The notes beneath the pieces are model-generated. The model ran no database searches and had not been told where the DNA came from. It was given only the letters and a program-made list of their open reading frames with translations. From positions 310,001 through 374,000 of the forward strand of contig CAIRYG010000010.1 in NCBI GenBank assembly GCA_903882745.1: a stretch of 64,000 bases of DNA, written 5' to 3'. Below, in pieces: positions 1,288 to 16,437 of the stretch. This stretch comes from an uncultured Gemmatimonadota bacterium (lineage in GTDB: Bacteria; Gemmatimonadota; Gemmatimonadetes; Gemmatimonadales; Gemmatimonadaceae). The position numbers and the translations under genes are program-made. Within the stretch, counting starts at the first letter, position 1, and every line of letters begins with the position of its first letter.

Positions 1288-2598
1288 CTAGTGGTACAGC
1301 AGGTATTTGCGGACCTTCTCGCGGAAGGCGGTCACGGCCGGAAGTTCTCGGTCGATGACGGAGTCGGGATCTTCACCTCTCAGCAACGCTTCGCGAAGTC
1401 CGGCAGCGCCGAACCGTTCATCGAAGCCAGTGTTACTGATTTTCAGTGAATCCGGAGCGGTCTTTGCGATTGCCCAGAGGAGGGCGGCGCCGACGCGCGA
1501 GGGATTCATGCTATTACGGTCGGTGACGATAATCCTGACCCCAGACAGCTCCTGCTCCGCGAACTTGCCGTCGGTCGGGGCACGAGGCGTAAACGACTCG
1601 GCGCGGAACTTGACGCCAGGGATCAATCGATCGTTCAGCAGGTCGGCGACTCCCCTGCCGTTCATCCACGGAGCGCCGATAAGTTGAAATGGAATATCGG
1701 TTCCGCGCCCAACCGAAACGTTCGCGCGCTCAAAGGCGACCAACGCAGGATAGACCAGCGCGCTGGTGAGCGTCGGCAGGTTGGGCGATGGCTTCACCCA
1801 GGGGAGTTTGGTCTCGTCAAACCACATCGCGCGCCGCCACCCGCGCACCGGGACCACGGTGAGGTTCGCCTGAATCCCCAGTTCTTCATTGAAAAACAGG
1901 GCCAGTTCCCCCATTGTCATTCCGTGCCGTAGGGGCGCGGGATATAATGCGTACGACTTGCCCGGTTTCCCCGGCTCGGGGTCTGCACTGTTGGCCAGTG
2001 CAACATCGAGCATCGGCCCCTCTTCGCGAGAGCCGGTGATGGGGTTCGGGCGGTCGAGTACCACGATCGGAATCTTGTTCCGCGCGGCCGCTCGCAGGGT
2101 GTAGACCATCAATCCGGTATACGTCCACGTGCGGGTGCCGATGTCCTGCAGGTCGAAGATGATGGTCTCGACGCCGCGGAGCAGTGAGTCCGCGGGCGCT
2201 TGAGTGCTTGGACGGTAGAGCGAGTGGATGGTAAGCCCCGTGCGCTCGTCCACTTCATCGGCGACATTTGGGTGATCCTCGGTCCCACGGATTCCGTGTT
2301 CCGGGGAAAAGAGGGCCACAAGTTTGACCCGCGCTTTCAGGGCTCGTCGATCGCGAGTCAGCAGATCGATGTCCGAGGTGCGATCTTCATTGATGCCGGT
2401 CTGGTTGGTGATCAGCGCGACACGTCGATTTTGAATGAGGCCGGTTCGTTCGTCGAGTAGCACCGTGATGCCAGGACGTACCTTCTCCGGTTCGGCGCGC
2501 CCATTGCGCTGGGCACGCACCCCTGCGGGAACCAGAAGTCCCTGTATGACTCCCATGACCAGGACCACCTCGGTGGCCTTCCTCATCCGATGAAACAT
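1288..2598 (-). CDS. namZ: Exo-beta-N-acetylmuramidase family protein (DUF1343, NamZ-like)
   Basis: A predicted secreted glycosidase of 436 residues. Family members such as Bacillus NamZ (formerly YbbC) release MurNAc from the non-reducing ends of peptidoglycan fragments. A hydrophobic signal segment ends near AGVRAQ (about residue 30). Family hallmarks are visible: ALITNQTG, the FSPEHGIRG motif, DLQDIGTRTWTYT and LDRPNPI. The ATG at 2598 is favoured because GAGGAG at 2605-2610 lies six bases upstream of it; ATG at 2586 is an alternative. It runs divergently from the NagZ-amidase fusion, and the two 5' ends overlap by nine bases. In Bacillus the same protein families are encoded together in the MurNAc recovery cluster. 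Confidence 0.85.
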   Translation of the reverse strand: MFHRMRKATEVVLVMGVIQGLLVPAGVRAQRNGRAEPEKVRPGITVLLDERTGLIQNRRVALITNQTGINEDRTSDIDLLTRDRRALKARVKLVALFSPEHGIRGTEDHPNVADEVDERTGLTIHSLYRPSTQAPADSLLRGVETIIFDLQDIGTRTWTYTGLMVYTLRAAARNKIPIVVLDRPNPITGSREEGPMLDVALANSADPEPGKPGKSYALYPAPLRHGMTMGELALFFNEELGIQANLTVVPVRGWRRAMWFDETKLPWVKPSPNLPTLTSALVYPALVAFERANVSVGRGTDIPFQLIGAPWMNGRGVADLLNDRLIPGVKFRAESFTPRAPTDGKFAEQELSGVRIIVTDRNSMNPSRVGAALLWAIAKTAPDSLKISNTGFDERFGAAGLREALLRGEDPDSVIDRELPAVTAFREKVRKYLLYH

Positions 2599-5460
2599 TC
2601 GCGTCTCCTCGCGTGCGGTTCCGTTCTTGCCCTGGCCATCGCCTGTGTGCCCACTGGTCTCCGAACCCTGCCGACGCCATCGTTTCGGCCGTCATTCAGC
2701 ACGCCACTCACTGACGACGCAACGCGCTGGATTGACCACACACTCGCCGGCCTGTCGCTCCGCGAGCGCGTCGGCCAGATGGTCACGGTCTGGGCTCTAG
2801 GAGATTACACCAGCACCACCGATCCGTCATACCTGGAACTGCGCCGCTGGATCCAAGAGGACAAAGTCGGCGGCGTGATCATGTCGCTCGGCTCACCGAT
2901 TGAAGTCGCCGCCAAGGTGAACGATTTCCAGCGGATGGCAAAGATTCCACTCCTGATCTCGTCCGACATCGAGCCTGGACTCGGCCGCCTTGAGGGCGGG
3001 GTCTTTGCGCCCAACACATACGGTGGCGGCAGCGCGACGATTCTCCCGAATAACATGGCGATCGGCGCGACCGGGAACGAAGCAAATGCCTTCGAGGCGG
3101 GTCGGATTACAGGGAAAGAAGCACAGGCGATTGGCATTCATATCGCCTTCGCTCCGGTGGTGGATGTCAACAACAATCCCGCGAATCCCGTCATCAACAC
3201 GCGGTCGTTCGGCGAGGATCCACAGGCCGTCGCGCGGATGTCGGCGGCGTTTGTGCGCGGCGTGCAGGGTGAGGGGGTCGCGGCTGTCGCCAAGCACTTC
3301 CCCGGCCACGGCGACACCGATACCGATTCGCACACCGCCTTGCCGATTGTCTCGAGTAATCGAGCACGGCTCGAGGCAGTCGAACTGGTCCCCTTCCGCG
3401 CCGTGGTGGACGCGGGCATTTCGGGCGTGATGACGGCGCACATTGCGCTCCCCGCGATCGCGCACGATTCGATCCCGGCCACGCTGTCGCCGGCCATCAT
3501 CTCGGGGCTGCTCCGGGACACGCTGCACTTCCGGGGCGTGACCTATACCGACGCCCTGTCGATGGAAGGGATCGGCGGCGGCTACACGGTGGAGAAAAGC
3601 GCGGTCCTCGCAGTGAAGGCGGGCGCCGATGTCCTGCTGAAGCCAACCGATGTCCGTCGAGCGATCGATGCCGTGGTCGCCGCGGTGGAGCACGGGGAGA
3701 TTACGCCGGCTCGCATCGACGCGAGCGTCCGGCGCCTGCTCGAACTCAAGTTGCGCACGGGCGCCATTCAACATCCGATTGTCGCGTTGGACTCGCTGCG
3801 CATTGCGGTGGGCAGCGCCACAAGTCGTGGGACCGCGGCGTGCATCGCGAGTGAAGCCATCACACTGCTTCGCGATGACGCATCGCTCGTGCCCGTGAAA
3901 ACCGGTGGTTCCACGCTGGTACTCACCTATGCGAGTGAGAACGACCTCGACGCGGGACGAGTGTTCGGGGCCACGGTCCGCGCGGCCGTACGCAACGCAC
4001 GGGTCGTGCGCATCACGCCGCGCTGGTCACGCGCGCAGCTGGACTCGCTGGTGCGTCCAGCCGATCGGCTCGTCATTGCCACGCAAGTGCGCACGATCGA
4101 AGGCGAGGGGCGCTTCTCCGTGGCCAAGCCGGTGGCACAGTGGATTGACTCCATTGCGGCAACGCACGCTGTCATCGTCGCGGCCCATGGCAACCCATAC
4201 GTGCTCCGCGAGTTCCCACATGTTGGCGCGTACCTCGCGACCTGGGGACGGGGTCCGGCACTCGAGGACGCGGCCGCGCGCGCTATCACGGGACGCATCG
4301 GGGTGACCGGCAAGGCTCCTGTCTCGCTGCCGGGATTCTTCGCCCGCGGCGACGGGCTGGTGCGCGTTGCCCCGCCGAGTCTCTCAACGGCAATGAGTGA
4401 CACACTGCGACGCGTGCTGGACCGTGCCATCGCCGACAGCGCATTCCCTGGGGCGTTCGTCGTCGTAGGACGGCGCTCGGGCATCGTCGCGCAGATGGGG
4501 GCTGGCCATCTCGACGTCGGACCTTCCCCCGTTCCCGACGAGCACACGCTCTGGGACATGGCATCGCTCACCAAAGTGCTCGCACTGACGTCGGCGATGA
4601 TGCAGCTGGTCGAGCAAGGCACAGTGGAGTTGGACGCCCCGGTGCAGCGGTACCTCCCACAGTGGAAGGGTCCAAACAAGGATCGCGTCACCGTGCGTGA
4701 CCTGCTCACCCATCGCTCGGGATTGCCGGCGTGGCGCCCGATTTACAAAGAGGCCACAACCCCTGCCGAGGCGCTGGCCCTCGTGTTCGCGACGGCGCTC
4801 GATACGCTCCCGCGCGTCCGCATGGTCTACTCCGACCTTGGCGCGATTCTCATGGGGGAGATCGTGCGCACCGTGTCAGGCCAACGCATCGACGCCTACA
4901 CCCGAGACCATGTGTTCGGGCCACTCGGCATGAAGGAAACGAGCTACCTGCCAGACCCTGCCCTCCTCCCGCGGATCGCGCCGACCGAGGTCGACCCGTG
5001 GCGCCAGCGGCACCTCCGCGGCGAGGTGCATGACGAAAACGCATTCGCCCTGGGCGGTGTCTCCGCACACGCCGGCCTCTTCAGCTCGGGATCAGACCTC
5101 GCGCACCTGGCCCAGGCCTACCTGAACGGAGGGGTATTCGGCGGCGTTCACGTCTTCAAGGAGAGCACCATCCGGCAGTTCACGGCCGTGCAAGACTCCA
5201 CCTTCTCGAACCGCGCACTCGGCTGGGAGACCCCAACCGGCTCGAACTCCGCGGGTCACCTGATGACGCGCCCGTCGTTTGGGCACACCGGCTTTACGGG
5301 GACCTCCTTCTGGGTCGATCCGACCGACGACTTATTCGTGATTATGCTCACGAATCGGGTGAATCCGACACGAGCCAACACCAAGATTTCAGCGTGGCGC
5401 CAAGCCGTGGCCGATGCCGCCGTCAGCCTGACCCGTCAGCTCGCGCCGGCGCAGCCCTAG
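2590..5460 (+). CDS. nagZ: Fusion of beta-N-acetylglucosaminidase (GH3, NagZ-like) and serine amidase/beta-lactamase family domain
   Basis: This encodes 956 residues. The signal or lipoprotein leader (LALAIACVP) is followed by a GH3 catalytic domain at about residues 40-400. It shows KHFPGHGDTDTDSH, carrying the NagZ Asp-His acid/base dyad near residues 242-248, and the nucleophile region YTDALSMEG near residue 321. A GH3 C-terminal-like region spans about 400-590. A second catalytic domain (590-950) is of the penicillin-binding/beta-lactamase fold: SLTK near residue 659, YSD near 747 and HTG near 899 match the SxxK, YxN and KTG boxes. In Bacillus these activities are the separate proteins NagZ and AmiE (an N-acetylmuramoyl-L-alanine amidase). 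The fused protein should strip both peptide and GlcNAc from muropeptides outside the cytoplasm. The start lacks a clear Shine-Dalgarno. Confidence 0.88.
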   Translation: MKHSRLLACGSVLALAIACVPTGLRTLPTPSFRPSFSTPLTDDATRWIDHTLAGLSLRERVGQMVTVWALGDYTSTTDPSYLELRRWIQEDKVGGVIMSLGSPIEVAAKVNDFQRMAKIPLLISSDIEPGLGRLEGGVFAPNTYGGGSATILPNNMAIGATGNEANAFEAGRITGKEAQAIGIHIAFAPVVDVNNNPANPVINTRSFGEDPQAVARMSAAFVRGVQGEGVAAVAKHFPGHGDTDTDSHTALPIVSSNRARLEAVELVPFRAVVDAGISGVMTAHIALPAIAHDSIPATLSPAIISGLLRDTLHFRGVTYTDALSMEGIGGGYTVEKSAVLAVKAGADVLLKPTDVRRAIDAVVAAVEHGEITPARIDASVRRLLELKLRTGAIQHPIVALDSLRIAVGSATSRGTAACIASEAITLLRDDASLVPVKTGGSTLVLTYASENDLDAGRVFGATVRAAVRNARVVRITPRWSRAQLDSLVRPADRLVIATQVRTIEGEGRFSVAKPVAQWIDSIAATHAVIVAAHGNPYVLREFPHVGAYLATWGRGPALEDAAARAITGRIGVTGKAPVSLPGFFARGDGLVRVAPPSLSTAMSDTLRRVLDRAIADSAFPGAFVVVGRRSGIVAQMGAGHLDVGPSPVPDEHTLWDMASLTKVLALTSAMMQLVEQGTVELDAPVQRYLPQWKGPNKDRVTVRDLLTHRSGLPAWRPIYKEATTPAEALALVFATALDTLPRVRMVYSDLGAILMGEIVRTVSGQRIDAYTRDHVFGPLGMKETSYLPDPALLPRIAPTEVDPWRQRHLRGEVHDENAFALGGVSAHAGLFSSGSDLAHLAQAYLNGGVFGGVHVFKESTIRQFTAVQDSTFSNRALGWETPTGSNSAGHLMTRPSFGHTGFTGTSFWVDPTDDLFVIMLTNRVNPTRANTKISAWRQAVADAAVSLTRQLAPAQP

Positions 5461-5500
5461 GTCGGCCGCGCGGCAGGCAGCAGCGCTGGCGCGCGCGAGG

Positions 5501-6085
5501 TCAGCGCCCCACCAGCTTGGGCTCGGTGCGCTGGGAAACCCCTTCGGGTGCCACGATCATCGTGAACTCGAGGGGTTTTCTCGCTTCCGCGGCAATCTTC
5601 ATGGAGAGGCCGCCGTTGCGATTGAAGCCCACCCCGCCCCACCCCACCGTTAGCACTTCTACATGCTGCGCGGTCGCCGTCATCCGGACCTTATAGTCCC
5701 CAAAGATGGGCTTCTTGAGCTGCACGCTGACAGTGCAGGTCGAATCGCCAGCAACCAGCCCCCCGGCGTCCGTGCAATCCACTTTCGGCTGGGCGTCGGG
5801 GATTGTGGCCGCGTTGGGCGAGCCGGGGACAAAGACGGTTACTTTCCGGCCATCGGGGGCGGTCAGTTCAAGGCCGATGTCGGCCACCGTCACTGTGAGG
5901 AACATCTCCCCGACGGGTTTGTCGAGGGTCTGAAGCCGAGGCGCCTTTTCCCGTCCGTTGTCGCGGGTCAGGAGCCCCCACGCCAGTGCGACACCGCCCG
6001 CGAGGATCGCGGCCAGCCCCAGGATGGGCTTCAGCCCCTCCACCAATGCCCGCAGGTGCCTATTTCCTTGAGAATGATTCGGCAT
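5501..6085 (-). CDS. Unidentified single-span membrane-anchored protein
   Basis: This encodes 194 residues. A short basic N terminus is followed by one transmembrane helix (about residues 17-38, LGLAAILAGGVALAWGLL), then an extracytoplasmic domain rich in beta-type sequence with two Cys (VDCTDAGG and DSTCTVSV) that could form a disulfide. The C terminus repeats hydrophobic/charged strand patterns without a recognisable motif. It is convergent with the NagZ fusion and divergent from the Fe-S carrier gene, 63 bases from it; its first codons contain the -35 box of that gene's promoter. I do not recognise the family. Confidence 0.55.
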   Translation of the reverse strand: MPNHSQGNRHLRALVEGLKPILGLAAILAGGVALAWGLLTRDNGREKAPRLQTLDKPVGEMFLTVTVADIGLELTAPDGRKVTVFVPGSPNAATIPDAQPKVDCTDAGGLVAGDSTCTVSVQLKKPIFGDYKVRMTATAQHVEVLTVGWGGVGFNRNGGLSMKIAAEARKPLEFTMIVAPEGVSQRTEPKLVGR

Positions 6086-6096
6086 TCGGATATATT
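6068..6096 (+). promoter_or_regulatory. Predicted sigma-70-type promoter for the A-type Fe-S carrier gene
   Basis: TTGAGA at 6068-6073 and TATATT at 6091-6096 are 17 bases apart, placing transcription start near 6103, about 46 bases before the ATG at 6149. The -35 box lies inside the start of the divergent gene. Both hexamers match the consensus at five of six or nearly so. Confidence 0.6.
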
Positions 6097-6148
6097 ACGT
6101 CCTAGCACATCATACCGCTCGCCAGAGGCGACGCAGGAGGAGGATACG

Positions 6149-6505
6149 ATGAGCACGATGAATCAGCCAGAGACCCTGTTGGGGCTTACCGCCGCAGCGG
6201 TCGTCGAAGTCAAGAAGTTCATGGTCGCGGAGAATGTCGCGCCGGAAACCGGCGGACTCCGCGTGTCCGTGCAGCCGGGCGGATGCTCCGGCTTCAAGTA
6301 CAGCCTGTTGATCGAAGATAAGCCCGCCGAAGACGACACGATTGTGGCGCAGGACGGGTTCAACGTGTTCGTGGATCCCTTCTCGATGCAGTACGTCGGC
6401 GGCGTCACGGTTGACTACGTGACGTCCATGCAGGGCTCAGGCTTCACGTTCAAGAACCCGAATGCGACTGGCGGCTGCGGCTGCGGCAGTTCGTTCTCGG
6501 CGTAA
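6149..6505 (+). CDS. A-type iron-sulfur cluster carrier (IscA/ErpA/SufA family)
   Basis: A protein of 118 residues that would receive and hand on Fe-S clusters to apoproteins in the cytoplasm. The three conserved cysteines are present: one in GGCSGFKY and the C-terminal pair in GGCGCGSSF. The length is close to the family norm. The ATG at 6149 is chosen because GGAGGAGGA lies at 6136-6144 and because the protein then starts just ahead of the conserved LTxxA region; the frame stays open further upstream but without coding character. It sits between the NagZ fusion and the symporter gene, whose TTG start is nine bases beyond this stop. Which member of the A-type family it is cannot be told from sequence alone. 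Confidence 0.92.
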   Translation: MSTMNQPETLLGLTAAAVVEVKKFMVAENVAPETGGLRVSVQPGGCSGFKYSLLIEDKPAEDDTIVAQDGFNVFVDPFSMQYVGGVTVDYVTSMQGSGFTFKNPNATGGCGCGSSFSA

Positions 6506-6514
6506 AGCAGTCCG

Positions 6515-8041
6515 TTGTCTGGGGGCCGATTCGGGATCATTGATCTTGCGGTTGTCGTCCTCTACCTGACCGCGACCACCGGCTTTGGGTTGTGGCTGGG
6601 GCGCAAGCAGACCAACGCGCGTGATTATTTCGTGGCAGACCGCTCACTTCCTTGGTGGGCGGTCTGCTTTTCAATTGTCGCCGCGGAAACGAGCGCGCTG
6701 ACCTTCATTTCGATTCCCGGGCTCGCGTACGTCGGGAACTTTGGGTTCCTCCAGGTTGCCGCCGGGTACATCGTTGGGCGCATCGCGATCGCGGCGATCC
6801 TGCTCCCCCGGTATTTCGAAGGCGACCTCGTGACGGCGTATACGCTGCTCGAGACGCGGTTCGGAAAAGAGACGCGTCGGTTCACGTCAATCGTGTTCAT
6901 GGTGACGCGCGCTATGGCAGATTCGGTGCGCGTGTTCGCGACGGCGATTCCGATCGCGTTGATCATCGGTCCCGTGGTGCCGCGTCAGTATCTGATGCCG
7001 AGCGCCATTCTGATCCTGGGTGCGCTGACGATCGTATACACCTATAAGGGCGGGATGCGTGCCGTCGTCTGGACAGAACTCGTGCAGACAGGGGTCTACC
7101 TGACGGGCGGGCTCGCCGCCGCATTCCTGCTTGGCCACGCCGCGACGGACGGGTGGAGTGGCATCCTCGCGCGCGCCGGCGCCGCGGGAAAGCTGCAGTT
7201 CATTGACGTCTACCGCGGGTTCGACCGGCCGCACACCGTCTTTGCCGGTGTGATTGGCGGCGCGTTCCTCTCGATGGCCTCGCATGGCGCCGACCAGACG
7301 ATCGTCCAACGACTCCTGTCGTCGCGCTCGCTGAAGGATGCCAAGCGCGCGATCATTGGGAGTGGGGTGGCCGTGTTCGTGCAGATGACGCTCTTTCTGC
7401 TCGTCGGCATCGGGCTGTGGTCCTTCTACGGCGGACGCGAGTTTGCGAAGCCTGACGACATCTTTCCGACGTACATCGTGGAACAGATGCCGCATGGGCT
7501 GCTCGGGCTGATTGTCGCGGCGATTGTCGCCGCGACGATGAGCACGCACTCGGGCGCCATCAACTCGTTGGCCGCGACCACCACGCATGACATTTACCTC
7601 CCGCTCTCCGGCCGCAAAGAAGACGATCCGCAAACATTCCGTGCGGGGCGTTTCTTCGCGTTGATCTGGGGAGTGGTGCTGACGGGTGGAGCACTCCTCT
7701 ACCCCGAGGGGAAAGTCCCCGTCGTCGTGGTGGCCCTCTCCATTGCGTCCTTTACTCAGGGAGCCCTGCTTGGCGGGTTCTTCCTGGGGATCTACAATCG
7801 GCGCGCCGTGCAGCGCGACGCAATCATTGGCATGAGCGTTGGTATTTTGACTATGGCATTCGTGGTCTTTGCCAAGCCGCTGGTTGCCGCGTATCCGAGT
7901 CTTGTGGGTCCGTTGAGCCCCTTCGTGAATATCGCGTGGCCGTGGTACGTGCTCATTGGCATGACAATTACCGTTACCGTGGGTTCGTTGTCCGCACTCA
8001 CGCACGACGGACGCACTGCCACACCCCTGCCCAAACGCTAA
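6515..8041 (+). CDS. Sodium:solute symporter (SSS family), candidate MurNAc/amino-sugar importer
   Basis: An inner-membrane Na+-coupled carrier of 508 residues with about 13 hydrophobic helices. Family features include the N-terminal GLWLGRKQTNARDYFVADR segment with SLPWWAVCFSIVAAETSALTF, and ATMSTHSGAINSLAATTTHDIY, the helix-8 region that in the family contributes Na+ ligands. The only usable start near the conserved N terminus is TTG at 6515, with no strong Shine-Dalgarno. It is likely cotranslated with the Fe-S carrier gene nine bases upstream and is followed after ten bases by a BadF-type sugar kinase. In Tannerella forsythia an SSS-family protein (MurT) imports MurNAc next to a MurNAc kinase. 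The substrate here is an inference from that parallel and from the nearby NamZ and NagZ genes. Confidence 0.85.
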   Translation: MSGGRFGIIDLAVVVLYLTATTGFGLWLGRKQTNARDYFVADRSLPWWAVCFSIVAAETSALTFISIPGLAYVGNFGFLQVAAGYIVGRIAIAAILLPRYFEGDLVTAYTLLETRFGKETRRFTSIVFMVTRAMADSVRVFATAIPIALIIGPVVPRQYLMPSAILILGALTIVYTYKGGMRAVVWTELVQTGVYLTGGLAAAFLLGHAATDGWSGILARAGAAGKLQFIDVYRGFDRPHTVFAGVIGGAFLSMASHGADQTIVQRLLSSRSLKDAKRAIIGSGVAVFVQMTLFLLVGIGLWSFYGGREFAKPDDIFPTYIVEQMPHGLLGLIVAAIVAATMSTHSGAINSLAATTTHDIYLPLSGRKEDDPQTFRAGRFFALIWGVVLTGGALLYPEGKVPVVVVALSIASFTQGALLGGFFLGIYNRRAVQRDAIIGMSVGILTMAFVVFAKPLVAAYPSLVGPLSPFVNIAWPWYVLIGMTITVTVGSLSALTHDGRTATPLPKR

Positions 8042-8051
8042 CTTAGTTGCC

Positions 8052-8981
8052 ATGACTACCACGATCGTTGTCGGCGTTGATGGAGGCGGTACCAAGACCA
8101 AGGTCATCGTCGCCGACGCTGAGGGAACACAGTTGGCGACGGTCACGGGCCCGGGGTCCGCTGTCCGCCCCGGGACCGCCGAGGACTCTGCCGATGTGAT
8201 TGAATCGCTCATCGGCGAAGCCCTCGCCGCCTGTGGGCACGAGGAGACCAAACCCGCCGCGATCTGTGCGGGGCTGGCTGGGGTTGGACGTGATGCCGAG
8301 TACTCGGCGATTGTTGCGGCACTCTCGCGTCGCGAACTGAGTGTCGAACTCGAGGTACTCCCCGACACGGCCGTGGCGCTCGAGGATGCGTTCGGCGACG
8401 GACCTGGTATCCTGTTGATTGCCGGCACCGGCTCATCAGCGATCGGCCGCAGTCACACGGGGCGTCTCGCGCGCTGCGGCGGCTGGGGCCCGATTTGCGG
8501 TGACGAAGGGAGCGGTGCGTGGCTTGGCCGTCGTGCGCTGAGCATCATCACCGGCGCCGCAGACGGGCGCGAGCCCGAAACCGCGCTCCTCGGCGTGCTC
8601 CTCACGCACCTACAGATGGAGAATCCCGACGAGCTCGTGGCCTGGGCCGCCAAGGCGACACCAGCGAAGTTCGCGGAGCTCTCAGGTCCGATCATGACCG
8701 TCGCGGCCAATGGAGACCTGCGCGCCAACTCCCTCTGCACGATGGCGTGCGAAGAGCTGGTGGTGCACATCCGGACCCTCGCGCGTCAACTCTTCACCGA
8801 TGAGCGCGCCGCGATTCCGATTGCGCTGGCCGGCGGCATGATGCATCGCGGGAGTTATCTGCGCCGGCTGGTTGAGCTTCGACTGAAGACCGCCGTTCCC
8901 GGCATCAATCTTCACTCGGCTGAAGTCATCCCAGCACGCGGCGCCGTACGGTGTGCCTTGCGACTGGCCGCAAACGCCTAG
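8052..8981 (+). CDS. BadF/BadG/BcrA-type sugar kinase, likely GlcNAc/MurNAc kinase (MurK-like)
   Basis: A cytoplasmic ASKHA-fold ATPase of 309 residues. It has phosphate-1 motif VDGGGTKTK at residues 9-17, the adenosine/phosphate-2 loop AGTGSSAIG near residue 125, and GDEGSGAWLG near 150, which in GlcNAc kinases contacts the sugar. Characterised homologues phosphorylate GlcNAc or MurNAc at O-6. It starts ten bases after the symporter stop and shares its direction, so import and phosphorylation look coupled. No murQ etherase, needed to use MurNAc-6-phosphate, is visible in the window. A strong bidirectional terminator follows. Confidence 0.85.
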   Translation: MTTTIVVGVDGGGTKTKVIVADAEGTQLATVTGPGSAVRPGTAEDSADVIESLIGEALAACGHEETKPAAICAGLAGVGRDAEYSAIVAALSRRELSVELEVLPDTAVALEDAFGDGPGILLIAGTGSSAIGRSHTGRLARCGGWGPICGDEGSGAWLGRRALSIITGAADGREPETALLGVLLTHLQMENPDELVAWAAKATPAKFAELSGPIMTVAANGDLRANSLCTMACEELVVHIRTLARQLFTDERAAIPIALAGGMMHRGSYLRRLVELRLKTAVPGINLHSAEVIPARGAVRCALRLAANA

Positions 8982-9730: not shown

Positions 9731-11035
9731 TCAGCTCGCGATCTTTGCGACGGCGGGCTGCCCGGGATTCTCCGGGAACTCACCCTCCCAGCGCGCCATG
9801 ACGGCCGTAGCAAGGCAGTTGCCGAGCAAGTTGACCGAGGTGCGCGCCATGTCCATCACAGCGTCAACGCCAAGGATCACGGCGACCGCCTGCAGCGGAA
9901 GCCCGAACATCGTGAGCGCGCCGCTCAAAATCACGAGCGAGGCGCGCGGCACCGCCGCAACACCCTTCGACGTCAGCATCAACGTCAGCATCATCAAAAG
10001 TTGCTGACTCAGGGGCATATCGATGCCCCCCGCCTGAGCGGCGAAGATGCTCGCCACCGCGAGATACAGCGTGGAGCCGTCAAGGTTGAACGAGTACCCC
10101 GTGGGCAACACGAAGGCGATGATACGCTTCGGGAGACCGAACTTTTCGAGATTCTCCATCGCCAACGGCAGAGCGGCCTCGCTCGACGCCGTTGAGAAAG
10201 CAATCATCCACGGCTGCTTCACAAAGCTCCAGAAGATGCCGAGCGGAATCCGCGCAAAGAGCGCAATCGGCACCAGCACGATCAACACGAACACAATCAA
10301 CGATCCGTAGAGCGTCACGACGAGAATCGCCAAGCTCTTGAGCACGCCAAGGCCGCTCGTGCCAACGGTGGTTGCGATAGCGGCACCGATACCGAACGGC
10401 GCGAACTTCATCACAATCCCGACGAACTTGAACATCACGTCCGACATGCTCTGACAGAAATCGAGCATGAACTGCTTGCTCTTCCCCTGCGGTACTTGCG
10501 ACAGGCCGACGGCAAAGAGAATGGTAAAGAATACGATCTGCAGTACTTCGTTGTGCGCCGCGGCATCAAAGAAACTCTGCGGCACCATGTGCTCAATCAC
10601 GCCGGTAAACGAGACCTCCGTCTTGGCAAACTCTGCGCCTTTGTCCGCCGAGGCTGCCGCGAGGGTGATGCCGACGCCGGGCTTGATCAGATTCACCGCA
10701 ATCAGGCCGATGGCCAGCGCCGCCGTGGTGACCACCTCGAAGTACAGAATCGAACGGAAGGCGAGGCGTCCCACTTTCTTCATGTCGTCGCCGTGCCCGG
10801 CAATCCCGACCACGAGGGTGCTGAAGAGCAACGGCACAATCAACGACTTGATCATCCGCAGAAACACAGACGACGTCGCCTTTTCAGCGATGGCCATCTT
10901 GGGCCACTCGGCCGCCGGAAAGAAGTAGCCGAGGGCAATGCCCGAGAGCATCGCAATGATGATCCATTGCGTGGAACTGATGCCACGGGGGGCAACGCTC
11001 GCCGCGCTACTGTGTGTGCTGCTGGTCTCGCTCAT
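9731..11035 (-). CDS. Dicarboxylate/amino acid:cation symporter (DAACS, GltP/DctA type)
   Basis: An inner-membrane carrier of 434 residues taking up glutamate, aspartate or C4-dicarboxylates with H+ or Na+. The re-entrant hairpins are recognisable: HP1 with FSTASSEAALP and HP2 with TSKGVAAVPRAS. The unwound TM7 reads SFNLDGST, a variant of NMDGT, and DMARTSVNLLGN in TM8 carries the substrate-binding Asp, Arg and Asn. It stops eight bases before the dienelactone hydrolase start and follows the amino-acid permease gene after 78 bases. The exact substrate cannot be assigned. Confidence 0.92.
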   Translation of the reverse strand: MSETSSTHSSAASVAPRGISSTQWIIIAMLSGIALGYFFPAAEWPKMAIAEKATSSVFLRMIKSLIVPLLFSTLVVGIAGHGDDMKKVGRLAFRSILYFEVVTTAALAIGLIAVNLIKPGVGITLAAASADKGAEFAKTEVSFTGVIEHMVPQSFFDAAAHNEVLQIVFFTILFAVGLSQVPQGKSKQFMLDFCQSMSDVMFKFVGIVMKFAPFGIGAAIATTVGTSGLGVLKSLAILVVTLYGSLIVFVLIVLVPIALFARIPLGIFWSFVKQPWMIAFSTASSEAALPLAMENLEKFGLPKRIIAFVLPTGYSFNLDGSTLYLAVASIFAAQAGGIDMPLSQQLLMMLTLMLTSKGVAAVPRASLVILSGALTMFGLPLQAVAVILGVDAVMDMARTSVNLLGNCLATAVMARWEGEFPENPGQPAVAKIAS

Positions 11036-11113
11036 ACGTGCGTCACCGGTGCGTGGTGGAGGCGACGTCGCCTCGGGAAAGTGGTAGACAGTCGAAATGG
11101 TCCGTCAACAGCA

Positions 11114-12610
11114 TTACGCACGCTGCGCTTCGCCGCTGCGGAGCGTTGAGTTCTTGTAGCCATACACTGCGTACAACACGATACCAATCGCAAGCCACCA
11201 GCCAAACCGAACCCAGGCAAGCCCAGGGAGCCCAAGCATCACATATACACAGGCGCCAGCGCCCGTGACCGCAACAGGCCACACGAAGGGCACGCGGAAT
11301 GGACGCGGACGATCCGGCTCGAGATATCGGAGCGCGAGCACACCCAAGCAGACCAGCGCGAACGCGAAGAGGGTGCCGATGTTGGTCAGATCGTACGTCT
11401 CATTGGCATCGCCAATCAGCGACCAGAGCGCGACGAACACGCCGGTGATAATCGTCGTGATGTGCGGGATATGCGTCTTGGGGTGCACCTTGGCGGCCCA
11501 ACGCGGAAGCAGTCCGTCGCGCGCCATCGCAAAGAAAATGCGGGGCTGGCCGTACTGAAACACCAAGAGCACCGCGGCCATCGAGAACACCGCACCGAGG
11601 GCAACAATCTTGGAGATGCTCGTGAGCCCAGTCGCATCAAGCGCGAAGGCGAGCGGATCTGCCGAGGCCCCAAGCTTCTGGTACGGCACCATGCCGGTGA
11701 GGACGGCGCCAACCACGATATAAATCAGTGTGCAAATCGCGAGCCCGCCCAGAATACCGATGGGCAAGTTCCGCTGCGGGTTCTTAGTTTCTTCGGCTGC
11801 CGTCGAAATCGCGTCAAACCCGATATACGCAAAGAAGACAATCGCCGCCCCCTGATGCACGCCCGTAAATCCGTTGGGGGCAAAGGGGTGGTAGTTGGCG
11901 GTGTCGATGTGCTGCGCGCCCATGATCAAGAACAGCGCGAGCACCAGCAGCTTGACGCCGACCATGATGTTATTGGCTCTGGTGCTTTCCTTGACGCCCG
12001 TGAGCAGCAACCAGGTGATCAGAGCAACGATCGCGAAGGCCGGAACATTCACCAGCACCGGCATGCCGAACAGGTGCGGCGCGGACTGCATGAGTCCGTG
12101 CACCGCGGGATCCGCACTCAGGAGCGCCGTGCGGTATCCGGTGGTCATCCAAGCGGGAAGCGCGAGGAATCCTCCCGTGAGTGACTTGAAGTAGTCCCCC
12201 CACGAGATGGCGACGGCCACATTCCCCACCGCATACTCAAGAATCAGGTCCCACCCAATGATCCACGCGACAATCTCGCCGAGGGTGGCGTATGTGTAGG
12301 CGTAGGCACTGCCGGCCTGCGGAATCATTGAGGCGAGCTCCGCATAGCAGAGCCCTGCCAGCGCGCACACGCAGCCGAGCAGCAGGAACGAGAGGACCAA
12401 CGCCGGCCCCGCACCGTACCGAATCACGTGCCCCGCGGCATCGGTCTGCCCAGCCGCAGCAGAACCAATGGATCCAAAGATCCCCGCCCCGATCACGGCA
12501 CCGATCGCGAGCATGATCAGGTCGCCCGCTCCCAAGGATCGCTTGAGCCCCGAGGCCTCCGTCTCTGCGACCAGCGTGGCAATCGGCTTTCGACTGAAAA
12601 GTCCCTTCAT
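11114..12610 (-). CDS. Amino acid permease, APC superfamily (cationic amino acid transporter-like)
   Basis: This encodes 498 residues with about 12-13 hydrophobic helices. The first helix carries the APC substrate loop [10 protein letters not shown] (about residues 37-46). [29 protein letters not shown] is the classic TM6-loop region of the YfnA/CAT subgroup (residues near 260), and the C terminus has [16 protein letters not shown]. It would take up an amino acid across the inner membrane. It follows the H+-pyrophosphatase gene on the same strand behind a strong hairpin terminator and precedes the DAACS carrier gene. Confidence 0.9.
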
Positions 12611-12641
12611 GCGACAGCAGTCCTTGTGATGGGCGGGAAAT

Positions 12642-12674
12642 CCGAGGCCGGCGCAATAGCCGCGCCGGCCTCGG
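12642..12674 (-). terminator. Intrinsic terminator after the H+-pyrophosphatase gene
   Basis: A perfect 13-base-pair stem (12642-12654 with 12662-12674) with a seven-base loop, followed in the minus direction by ATTTCCC. There is no full U-tract, so efficiency is uncertain. Confidence 0.65.
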
Positions 12675-12688
12675 GATGCTGCGTCACA

Positions 12689-14872
12689 TCAGATAAAGAG
12701 CGGTGCGAGCACGAGCGTGATCGTCGAGAGCAACTTGATCAACACGTGCAACGACGGGCCGGCCGTATCCTTGAACGGGTCGCCGACGGTGTCGCCAACC
12801 ACCGCGGCCTTATGCGCGTCAGACTTCTTGCCGCCGTACGCGCCGGTCTCGATGTACTTCTTGGCATTATCCCACGCGCCGCCGCCGTTGTTCAGGAAGC
12901 CGGCCATCAGGATGCCCACCACGGTCGCGATCATCAAGAAACCGGCAACCGCCTCGGCGCCAAGATGCTCATCCGGACCGCCGAGCGACTTGAAGATCAA
13001 GCCGACGCCGATCGGGAACGCGAGGACCAAGAAGCCAGGCAGCACCATCGCCTTCAGGGCGCCGACCGTCACAATGTCTACGCACGCCGCATAATCCGGC
13101 TGCTCGGTGCCCTGCATGATGCCCGGGCGCTCCTTGAACTGACGACGGACTTCCGTGATCACGCTCTGCGCAGCCTTGCTCACCGCGGTCATCGCGAGCG
13201 AGGAGAACCAGAACACGAGCATACCGCCGATCAGCGCACTCACGAACACCTGCGGCTTGCTGAGGTCGACATGCAGCGTCTGGCCGGTGTAGTTCTTGAC
13301 TTCATCCAAATACGCCGAGAAGAGCAGGAAGGCGGCCAGTGCGGCCGAACCAATCGCGTACCCCTTCGTGAGCGCCTTCGTGGTGTTGCCCACCGAGTCC
13401 AGACGATCCGTCTTATCGCGGATCTCCGCCGGCTGCTTGGACATCTCGACGATACCACCGGCGTTGTCCGTGATCGGTCCGAACACGTCCATCGCGAGGA
13501 TATAGCCAGCCGTACCGAGCATACCCATCGTGGCGACTGCAGTGCCGAACAGGCCACCCGCGGCCTGCCCGTCGATCATGATGCCGCTGGCACGACCCAC
13601 CATGAAGCTCGAGACGAGCGCGATGGCGATCGTGAACACCGGCAACACCGTGGACTCCATACCGACCGACAAGCCCATGATGATGTTCGTGGCCGGGCCA
13701 GTCTGCGAGGCTTCGGCGATCGACAACACGGGACGATAGCGATACTCGGTGTAGTACTGCGTGATGAACACGAAGGCGACCGAGGTCGCGACGCCGATCA
13801 TCGCGCAGATGAAGTAGTGCCACCAAGCGTCCGGAGCATCCGGCGTCACGAGCAGCATCTTGCAGGCAAAGAAAATGGCAACGCTCACGAGCACCGCCGT
13901 GAGATAGAAGCCACGGTTCAGCGCAGCCATCGGATCGGCGTCTTCCGTAGTGCTCACGCTCATCACACCGACAATCGAGCACACCAAGCCAAGCGCGCCA
14001 ATGACGAGCGGAAAGAGAATGCCCGCGACGCCGAACGACTTGAACAGCAACACGCCCAGGATCATCGCGCCGATGTTCTCGGCGGCGGTGGACTCGAACA
14101 GGTCGGCGCCACGGCCGGCGCAATCGCCGACGTTGTCGCCCACGAGATCGGCGATCACTGCCGGATTGCGCGGATCGTCCTCGGGGATTCCGGCTTCAAC
14201 CTTGCCCACCAAGTCCGCGCCAACGTCAGCGGCCTTCGTGTAAATGCCGCCGCCGAGCTGCGCGAACAGCGCCACGAACGAGGCGCCGAAGCCGTAGCCG
14301 ACGATCAAGAACGGAATCTTCTGCGCCCACGCCGCCGACTCCATGCCGTTCGGCACCAGCGCGGCGAGAATGGCGAACAGGCCACCGACGCCGAGCAACG
14401 ACATCGAGACGGTGAAGAGGCCAGAGACCGCACCGCCACGAAGCGCCGTCTGCAGCGCCGCGTTGAGCGAGGTCATGGCCGCGGCGGCCACGCGGATGTT
14501 TGTGCGGATCGACACCCACATGCCCATGTAGCCGGCGATTCCAGAGCTCAGCGCGCCGAGCAGGAACGACAGCGTGATGAACAGGGCGAAGACCTTCGGG
14601 TCATCGACCGGGTCGGTCGCGTTGTGCGTGCGAAGGACGCCATAGCCAACGGCGAGCACGGCGGCGACGAGTACTGCGAGCATCGCGATCGTCTTGTTCT
14701 GGCGAGCGAGGTAGGCCTCAGCGCCTTCCTGAATCGCGTCGGAGATCTTGCGCATTTCCGGCGTACCGGTGCTGCGCGCAAGCACCCAACGGGCGAGCCC
14801 AACCGCGAACAACAGGGCGCCGACACTGGCACCAATAACGATCATGAGCAAAGTCGACTGCATGGAAGCCAT
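12689..14872 (-). CDS. hppA: Membrane-bound proton-translocating pyrophosphatase, K+-independent type
   Basis: An integral membrane enzyme of 727 residues that couples PPi hydrolysis to ion export. Its catalytic signature ADVGADLVGKVE lies near residue 215, followed by IADLVGDNVGDCAGRGADLFE. The residue that separates K+-dependent from K+-independent enzymes is Lys in GNTTKALTKG (near residue 497), and Lys is characteristic of K+-independent H+ pumps. About 15-16 helices are expected. It recovers energy from biosynthetic PPi, possibly powering the adjacent carriers, and is flanked by two APC permease genes on the same strand. Confidence 0.95.
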   Translation of the reverse strand: MASMQSTLLMIVIGASVGALLFAVGLARWVLARSTGTPEMRKISDAIQEGAEAYLARQNKTIAMLAVLVAAVLAVGYGVLRTHNATDPVDDPKVFALFITLSFLLGALSSGIAGYMGMWVSIRTNIRVAAAAMTSLNAALQTALRGGAVSGLFTVSMSLLGVGGLFAILAALVPNGMESAAWAQKIPFLIVGYGFGASFVALFAQLGGGIYTKAADVGADLVGKVEAGIPEDDPRNPAVIADLVGDNVGDCAGRGADLFESTAAENIGAMILGVLLFKSFGVAGILFPLVIGALGLVCSIVGVMSVSTTEDADPMAALNRGFYLTAVLVSVAIFFACKMLLVTPDAPDAWWHYFICAMIGVATSVAFVFITQYYTEYRYRPVLSIAEASQTGPATNIIMGLSVGMESTVLPVFTIAIALVSSFMVGRASGIMIDGQAAGGLFGTAVATMGMLGTAGYILAMDVFGPITDNAGGIVEMSKQPAEIRDKTDRLDSVGNTTKALTKGYAIGSAALAAFLLFSAYLDEVKNYTGQTLHVDLSKPQVFVSALIGGMLVFWFSSLAMTAVSKAAQSVITEVRRQFKERPGIMQGTEQPDYAACVDIVTVGALKAMVLPGFLVLAFPIGVGLIFKSLGGPDEHLGAEAVAGFLMIATVVGILMAGFLNNGGGAWDNAKKYIETGAYGGKKSDAHKAAVVGDTVGDPFKDTAGPSLHVLIKLLSTITLVLAPLFI

Positions 14873-14958
14873 GAACTTGGGGGACTAGAGTGCGGAGGTG
14901 CGAGGGCGTGATGAACGAAACGAAACCGCCCCGTGGGAGTGGAGAAGCAAACTCAGCG

Positions 14959-16437
14959 CTAGGCAGCGTTGCCCGATGATGCCGAACGCTTCCAAGCGTA
15001 GTACACGGGAACACCGATCAACACGAGCACGAGCCCCGACAGGGCCTGCGCACGCGTTTTGTCTGCCACGAGCAGCGTCACCGCGACACCGCCGGAGAGC
15101 AGGACGTACAGCGCAGGGAGCACCGGATAGCCAATCGCCTTGTACGGGCGGGGGACATCCGGGCGCTTGGCCCGCAGGAGGAACAAGCCGATGGTCGTCA
15201 GCGCATAGAACAGCAACGCCGCGAAGACCACATAATCGAGCAGCTGACCGTAGGTGCCCGTCAGGCAGAGTGCGCTCGTCCAGATGGACTGCAGCACGAG
15301 GGCCCACGCCGGCACGCCATTCTTGCTGAGGACGCCGGCCTTCGCAAAGAACAGTCCGTCCTGTGCCATCGCGTAGTACACGCGAGAGCCCGACAGAATC
15401 AGTCCGTTGTTACAGCCAAAGGTCGAGATCAAAATGGCACAGGCCATGATCGCCGCGCCGTTGGCACCAAAGATTGTTTCCATGACCGCGGTGGCCACAC
15501 GATCTGACGTCGCATGGTCAATCCCGCGCGCAATCGTGGTGGCGCCATCGACGGCGCCATGAATCGGCAGCACGCTCAGATAGCCGACGTTGGCGAGGAT
15601 ATACAAACCGGTCACGAGCCCGGTTCCCATAAGCATCGCCAGCGGCAGGTTCTTGGCAGGGTTCTGCACTTCGGCGGCGGCGAACGTCACGCTGTGCCAC
15701 GAGTCGGCGGAGAACAACGAGCCGGTGAGCGCTGCGCCAAAGGTGATCACGAACAACATCGTGAAGTCCGGCGAGCCGGCAAAGAACTGCCCTGCGCCGA
15801 AGTTCGCGGCCACGGCATCTGCATTACGGCCAATGGTCAGCGCCAGGATCACCAGCAACGCGAGCGCTGCGGTCTTGATAAAGGTCAGCGACGTCTGGAC
15901 GAACTTCCCTTCCTTCACGCCGCGCAGGTTGATCCAGGTCAGCACCCAGATCGTGACAAGCGCCACCAATCGCTGCGGCGAAAGGCCGAGTTCGACCATG
16001 CCGCCCGGCGAGGCAATATCAAGCTTCGGGAACCACGAGAAGCGCTCCGGCGTCACAGCGGGCAGGAGCACACCGAGGAACTTTCCGAAACCGACCGCAA
16101 CGGCCGCGATCGTTCCGGTCTGGATGACGACAAACAACGTCCATCCGTACAGGAACCCCATCAGCGGGCCCATCGACTCGCGCAGGAAGGTGTACATGCC
16201 ACCGGCCCGCGGATACATCGCCGCGAGTTCGCCGTAGGCGAGCGCTCCGAGGAGCGTCATGACACCAGTGAGCACCCACGCCAGAAGCAGCCACCCTGGC
16301 GAGCCGAGCGAACGGCTCATGTCGGCCGACACGATGAAGATTCCAGATCCCACCATGGAGCCTGCCACAAGCATCGTGGCGTCGGTGAGGGTCATCGCCT
16401 TCACGAACTGGCCCTTCTCAGCAGTCGGTTGGCTCAT
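14959..16437 (-). CDS. Amino acid permease/antiporter, APC superfamily (LAT-like)
   Basis: This encodes 492 residues with 12 predicted helices. The TM1 motif reads GSMVGSGIFIV (about residues 27-37), followed by LGALAYGELAAMYPRAGGMYTFLRE, typical of the L-type or APA-like branch. SADSWHSVTFAAAEVQNPAKNLP marks the TM6-7 region. The C-terminal half resembles amino-acid exchangers. The substrate is not resolved. It is on the same strand upstream of hppA; 119 bases separate it from the TonB-like gene before it. Confidence 0.9.
   Translation of the reverse strand: MSQPTAEKGQFVKAMTLTDATMLVAGSMVGSGIFIVSADMSRSLGSPGWLLLAWVLTGVMTLLGALAYGELAAMYPRAGGMYTFLRESMGPLMGFLYGWTLFVVIQTGTIAAVAVGFGKFLGVLLPAVTPERFSWFPKLDIASPGGMVELGLSPQRLVALVTIWVLTWINLRGVKEGKFVQTSLTFIKTAALALLVILALTIGRNADAVAANFGAGQFFAGSPDFTMLFVITFGAALTGSLFSADSWHSVTFAAAEVQNPAKNLPLAMLMGTGLVTGLYILANVGYLSVLPIHGAVDGATTIARGIDHATSDRVATAVMETIFGANGAAIMACAILISTFGCNNGLILSGSRVYYAMAQDGLFFAKAGVLSKNGVPAWALVLQSIWTSALCLTGTYGQLLDYVVFAALLFYALTTIGLFLLRAKRPDVPRPYKAIGYPVLPALYVLLSGGVAVTLLVADKTRAQALSGLVLVLIGVPVYYAWKRSASSGNAA

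Follow-up and report, generated by a model that had tools for sequence, protein, structure and literature searches.

Is the gene group at positions 1288-8981 of the window a PTS-free route for salvaging the amino sugars of peptidoglycan, and where would such a route end? The window is the whole stretch of DNA analysed here, 64,000 nucleotides from an uncultured member of the Gemmatimonadaceae (Gemmatimonadota) with a 3.06 Mb genome in 14 contigs (estimated completeness 100%). A preliminary description had reported a compact locus in which genes for NamZ, a NagZ-beta-lactamase-fold fusion, a sodium:solute symporter (SSS) and a BadF-type sugar kinase lie within 8 kb. ORF calling and Pfam searches located all four (Table 1). 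We consider it likely that these genes form a module for PTS-free salvage of peptidoglycan amino sugars.

Table 1. Genes of the locus, with their coordinates in the window and the evidence for each assignment.
Feature	Position	Strand	Evidence
NamZ-type exo-beta-N-acetylmuramidase	1288..2598	-	Pfam NamZ_N, NamZ_C; PDB 4k05
Exported NagZ-type GH3 + serine beta-lactamase-fold (AmiE/PBP4B-like) fusion, 956 aa	2590..5460	+	Pfam; PDB 6k5j; motifs
194-aa protein with N-terminal hydrophobic segment	5501..6085	-	No Pfam or NCBIfam family matched
ErpA-like A-type Fe-S carrier	6149..6505	+	TIGR00049 over cut-off
Sodium:solute symporter (SSS), predicted MurNAc and/or GlcNAc importer	6515..8041	+	TIGR00813
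BadF/NagK-type amino-sugar kinase, MurK-like, predicted MurNAc/GlcNAc 6-kinase	8052..8981	+	PF01869; PDB 8zo3

The compactness first described holds in that all four genes are there, but they belong to divergent units, and an ErpA-like gene and a 194-aa ORF also lie inside. Rather than a single operon, the locus comprises three transcription units: the genes of NamZ and the GH3-beta-lactamase fusion are divergent, and ErpA, SSS and BadF make up the third unit. NamZ probably starts at 2586 (MRKATEVV...), judging from its N-terminal sequence. This start (minus strand) and that of the fusion (2590, plus strand) are then head to head and 3 nt apart (window 2584-2592), so that each promoter would have to lie within the opposite gene; in a relative of the same genus (L046), about 200 nt separate the two starts. 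The tight spacing of the third unit, with intergenic gaps of 9 and 10 nt, suggests a single ErpA-SSS-BadF transcript, and a promoter-like site is found upstream of the ErpA gene at 6068-6096. The 194-aa ORF has matches in its nearest relatives only (same genus and close relatives, 30-42% identity) and is not clearly part of the salvage system. Many relatives also keep, beside the cluster, the downstream block at 9731-16437 with its carboxylate symporter, two APC permeases and membrane pyrophosphatase.

Both trimming proteins carry the domains expected from the preliminary description. NamZ matched NamZ_N (E = 7e-68, 228 bits, cut-off 26.9) and NamZ_C (E = 2e-41, 143 bits, cut-off 25) as well as PDB entry 4k05 (195 bits), and its N-terminus, Sec-type by inspection, predicts export. 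The fusion was borne out as one ORF with the N-terminal (E = 1.5e-82) and C-terminal (E = 7e-8) GH3 domains and a Beta-lactamase domain (E = 3e-59), and its best PDB match was the GlcNAcase 6k5j (272 bits). Its catalytic motifs are intact: KHFPGHG at 235 and DSH at 246 agree with the NagZ-type KH[FS]PGHG and Asp-His loop dyad, and SLTK at 659, YSD at 747 and HTG at 899 are of the SxxK, YxN/D and HxG types. These motifs recur in relatives (KH[FS]PG in 63/63, D[ST]H in 62/63, SxTK in 63/70 and YS[DN] in 69/70), among which a GH3-beta-lactamase fusion occurs at 28 loci and two separate genes at 21. The fusion begins with MKHSRLLACGSVLALAIAC, including a lipobox-like LAIAC at residues 15-19, and looks like a periplasmic or outer-membrane lipoprotein. 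Of the extracellular trimming proposed earlier, trimming outside the cytoplasm is thus supported, but it would not be simply extracellular.

The symporter (SSF, E = 4e-38; TIGR00813, 204.6 bits against a cut-off of 184) did not cluster with proline or sialate carriers; such clustering had been named in the preliminary description as a possible refutation. Its proline symporter score was 75.7 against a cut-off of 515.5, with pantothenate and acetate symporter models likewise far under theirs. The nearest solved protein, the sialic acid transporter SiaT, is 28.6% identical, compared with 39-43% for those SSS proteins of Acidobacteriota and Planctomycetota that adjoin murQ and BadF. From these relationships, we infer that it imports MurNAc and/or GlcNAc with Na+. 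The likeness to Tannerella forsythia MurT drawn earlier stands as one of function, by description rather than by sequence. MurT is placed in the sodium symporter superfamily by PMC5790795, a paper that also names it MFS; the alternative that MurT is a non-SSS protein (DUF5009) found no support in the literature searched.

Two side observations concern symporters. In many relatives, the cluster has an additional insert, a second SSS only distantly related to the first (22% identity; L039:5727-7481, minus strand; L048:4291-6093, plus strand), which occurs in Acidobacterial murQ loci as well. Within the SSS coding sequence of the window, at 6634-6668, a perfect 15-bp hairpin is followed by a T-rich stretch (folding z -6.1). 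Relatives have an imperfect palindrome at this site instead; the hairpin turns a conserved Met into Cys and resembles the product of a quasipalindrome correction.

The kinase (BcrAD_BadFG, PF01869, E = 5e-33, 115 bits) had a single NCBIfam kinase match, NagK_SO3507, at 102 against a cut-off of 370. Its best PDB match by sequence was the MurNAc/GlcNAc kinase MurK of C. acetobutylicum (8zo3, 121 bits), with 96 bits for the C. violaceum GlcNAc kinase 1zc6. An AlphaFold (AF2) model (pLDDT 93.9) gave the same best structural match (VIA; Z 35.6, rmsd 2.4, 304 residues aligned, 29% identity); further matches were S. tokodaii hexokinase (Z 32.3), human NAGK (32.1), 1zc6 (31.8) and the T. forsythia kinases (24-25), so that, of the two MurK proteins, that of C. 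acetobutylicum is the nearer one and that of T. forsythia the more distant. D105 (catalytic) and D151 (O1-binding) are both invariant in the kinase alignment. According to the T. forsythia MurK structure (PMC10465942), MurNAc is permitted where neither Glu nor His occupies MurK positions 133-134 and neither Asn nor His occupies position 94. The corresponding lactyl-group positions are open in our kinase family: G143 and G144 are invariant, and residue 104 is P, T, A or G, never Asn or His. This permits MurNAc and is not decisive, as the residue before the catalytic Asp, Pro in the window's kinase, is Asn in C. acetobutylicum MurK and Thr in 1zc6. The N-acetyl loop also differs from that of C. 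acetobutylicum MurK and, in our reading of the alignment, has Ala (SAVRPG) where NAGK has Asn. Judged by sequence and model, the kinase is nearest to C. acetobutylicum MurK, and GlcNAc, MurNAc or both are possible substrates.

The preliminary description had found no murQ in the window and suggested looking elsewhere in the genome. We located murQ on another contig (C11; TIGR00274, 329.6 bits, cut-off 302), outside the salvage cluster on contig C10. There it is the first gene of a murQ-anmK-GH3 run on one strand (L024:9379-12945), adjoining a gamma-glutamyltranspeptidase gene and with an Amidase_3 gene nearby; the GH3 protein is NagZ-like, lacks an evident signal peptide and is predicted to be cytoplasmic. 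Of the 101 genomes of the order Gemmatimonadales, 97 have a murQ match above the cut-off. An AmgK bypass was considered and rejected, the single strong APH match adjoining an acyl-CoA dehydrogenase and not being AmgK-like.

Co-occurrence in relatives, proposed earlier as a check whose failure would refute the idea, proved extensive within the order, in other families of the class and in other phyla. All but one of the 101 Gemmatimonadales genomes have a single match to the BadF kinase, and tblastn of the kinase neighbourhoods (n = 41) revealed a fixed order: CDP-alcohol phosphatidyltransferase(-), NamZ(-), GH3(+), beta-lactamase-fold(+), ErpA(+), SSS(+), BadF(+). SSS was found in 41/41 neighbourhoods and NamZ in 31/41. 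In other families of the class, the cluster comprises NamZ, GH3, the beta-lactamase-fold gene, a NagB-PIG-L gene, SSS and BadF but no ErpA. ErpA is a conserved neighbour in Gemmatimonadales, and the clusters of the class's other orders lack it; it is therefore probably a housekeeping gene that joined as a later passenger. None of the Gemmatimonadota loci surveyed has murQ linked to the cluster.

A scan of genome contigs from other phyla found the same SSS and BadF pair directly beside murQ in Acidobacteriota and Planctomycetota. In Pyrinomonas methylaliphatogenes K22 (L122), the genes form one run, BadF-MurQ-SSS-GH3-(BLA-NamZ), the last being a fusion of the beta-lactamase-fold (AmiE) domain with NamZ in one 827-aa protein (L122:16885-19368); Pyrinomonadaceae BP_17 has a similar cluster. 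Further loci combine the beta-lactamase-fold gene, SSS, BadF, NagB and MurQ (Acidobacterial L113, L115 and L120), MurQ, a second SSS, the beta-lactamase-fold gene, GH3, NamZ, SSS and BadF (L150), or, in a Planctomycetia MAG, NamZ, SSS, MurQ and BadF. The enzymes and murQ, but no SSS of the window's type, occur in Pontibacillus and an Anaerolineae MAG. Gene orders differ, which indicates independent arrangements. In the kinase tree, Gemmatimonadota form a single group (support 100/99), and the kinases linked to murQ are spread over several distinct lineages outside it.

Independent co-localisation and the two different domain fusions (GH3-beta-lactamase here, beta-lactamase-NamZ in Pyrinomonas) support the salvage model, as does the presence of murQ in the genome. 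Gene identities, motifs, gene order and the murQ linkage in other phyla are observed, and the catalytic activities, transport substrate, localisation and co-expression are inferred from them. Outside the inner membrane, the lipoprotein fusion would remove GlcNAc from muropeptides with its GH3 domain and the stem peptide with its beta-lactamase-fold domain, and NamZ would release MurNAc from non-reducing ends. The SSS would import the freed sugars with Na+, the kinase would phosphorylate MurNAc and/or GlcNAc at O6, and MurQ, encoded beside AnmK and the cytoplasmic NagZ, would convert MurNAc-6-P to GlcNAc-6-P and D-lactate. The trimming, Na+-driven uptake and phosphorylation proposed at the outset thus gain support. 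Counted against the model are the kinase score below the NagK_SO3507 cut-off, its Z of 24-25 with T. forsythia MurK, the Ala in the N-acetyl loop, the unlinked murQ of Gemmatimonadota, the 10/41 neighbourhoods from which NamZ is missing, and the lack of NagA and NagB in the genome.

Each step has a precedent. By analogy, the locus would work like the murTKQ system of T. forsythia joined to the AmiE/NagZ/NamZ module of B. subtilis. The former (PMC5790795, PMC10465942) is likewise a PTS-free route, with MurNAc uptake by a transporter of the sodium symporter superfamily, a BadF-family MurNAc kinase and then MurQ; in the window, however, murQ is unlinked and the trimming enzymes share the locus. 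The B. subtilis cluster murQ-murR-murP-amiE-nagZ-ybbC(namZ) (PMC5061867) similarly encodes AmiE, NagZ and NamZ together for stepwise muropeptide trimming outside the cytoplasm, whereas the present locus, from a diderm, encodes an exported NagZ-AmiE fusion, has SSS and kinase in place of the PTS protein MurP, and contains neither MurR nor murQ. RmNag3 of Rhodothermus marinus (PMC6987092) has the same build as the fusion (signal peptide, GH3 domains 1 and 2, C-terminal beta-lactamase domain) and is an active GH3-beta-lactamase GlcNAcase acting on chitooligosaccharides, but its gene has not been reported with NamZ, SSS or a kinase. The Pyrinomonas K22 cluster also has BadF, SSS (41% identity), GH3, beta-lactamase-fold and NamZ in one run, but with murQ inside the run and the beta-lactamase-fold domain fused to NamZ rather than to GH3.

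Several other readings have to be weighed. The genes might be neighbours by chance, as their division among three transcription units and the ErpA gene between the parts could suggest; this we regard as practically negligible and refuted, since most kinase neighbourhoods in Gemmatimonadales show the same succession of genes, and murQ joins the genes in independent arrangements in other phyla. The beta-lactamase-fold domain, for its part, could be a DD-carboxypeptidase/endopeptidase (PBP4B/AmpH-like) or an esterase instead of a MurNAc-L-alanine amidase. Its best NCBIfam model is PBP4B (165 bits, under the cut-off of 385), AmpH also matches, and PBP4B belongs to E. coli's own murQ operon (PMC5061867). 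We think such an activity doubtful, however, as both the fusion with NagZ or NamZ and the order amiE-nagZ-ybbC in B. subtilis favour an amidase acting before MurNAc import.

A further, rather improbable competitor is a GlcNAc-centred system in which SSS and kinase (as NagK) serve GlcNAc only, MurNAc enters solely as anhydro-MurNAc via AnmK-MurQ, and NamZ merely frees GlcNAc-containing ends. It draws on NagK_SO3507 being the only NCBIfam kinase match, on a sugar-pocket loop resembling that of 1zc6, on the separate AnmK-MurQ run, and on NagB neighbours: NagB-PIG-L lies between ErpA and SSS in relatives, and NagB adjoins BadF in L113, L115 and L120. Yet besides nagB, murQ adjoins the same SSS and BadF genes in several phyla, the positions that would block MurNAc are open, and NamZ yields free MurNAc, for which no AmgK-like kinase was recognised in the genome. 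Recycling of the cell's own wall, rather than scavenging from dead neighbours, would share its enzymology with the salvage model and differ in the source of substrate; we give it somewhat less than an even chance. It was proposed earlier for B. subtilis and R. marinus, and the genome has no AmpG over threshold, which would leave periplasmic trimming and free-sugar import as the sole means of recovery; the same argument has been made for R. marinus (PMC6987092). However, the AmpG model detects only 5/14 controls, so that a divergent AmpG could escape, and the source of the substrate is not readable from sequence.

With the salvage model preferred, the fate of GlcNAc-6-P deserves attention. NagA exceeded its cut-off in 0/101 genomes of the order (best 41 bits; 36.7 bits in the window's genome), and the window's genome has no match to the NagB domain (PF01182), so that both enzymes of the standard NagA-NagB catabolism of GlcNAc-6-P are missing from it. 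Its two PIG-L proteins were weighed as substitutes for NagA and set aside; one of them is BshB1 (238 bits, cut-off 182.5). A NagB-PIG-L protein (PRK02122, glucosamine-6-phosphate deaminase-like family, 880 bits) was matched in 72/101 genomes, most as full-length fusions and a few as the NagB part only. In many Gemmatimonadaceae, it is encoded at the position between ErpA and SSS (L058:5921-7900, L026:6001-7965, L046:6416-8269), and the window's genome has lost it. In the fusion, the NagB part contains GIGKTGHIGFNEPG, with Thr at the position of Asp141 in E. coli NagB. As a tentative and rather speculative idea, Gemmatimonadales might run a NagA-less route in which NagB-PIG-L, whether its gene lies in this run or elsewhere, acts as a bifunctional GlcNAc-6-P deacetylase/deaminase replacing NagA in most members, with lineages lacking the fusion, such as that of the window, feeding GlcNAc-6-P directly into UDP-GlcNAc synthesis by an undescribed step.

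Such salvage systems are known in other bacteria, with precedents for the individual steps in RmNag3 (PMC6987092), B. subtilis AmiE/NagZ (PMC5061867) and T. forsythia MurT-MurK-MurQ (PMC5790795), and the locus combines known parts in a new way without being a new kind of system. A literature search found no relevant paper on amino-sugar or MurNAc use in Gemmatimonadota, and the present mix of parts appears to be undescribed in this phylum. Unrelated phyla have the same transporter and kinase as a pair linked to murQ, and the three trimming enzymes are independently connected by two alternative fusions (NagZ-AmiE and AmiE-NamZ). NagA is absent across the order and NagB-PIG-L present in most of its members, a pattern that points to a step of amino-sugar metabolism still to be solved. 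For an abundant and little-cultured phylum of soil and freshwater, the locus would provide a concrete, testable PTS-free route to the sugars of bacterial cell walls.
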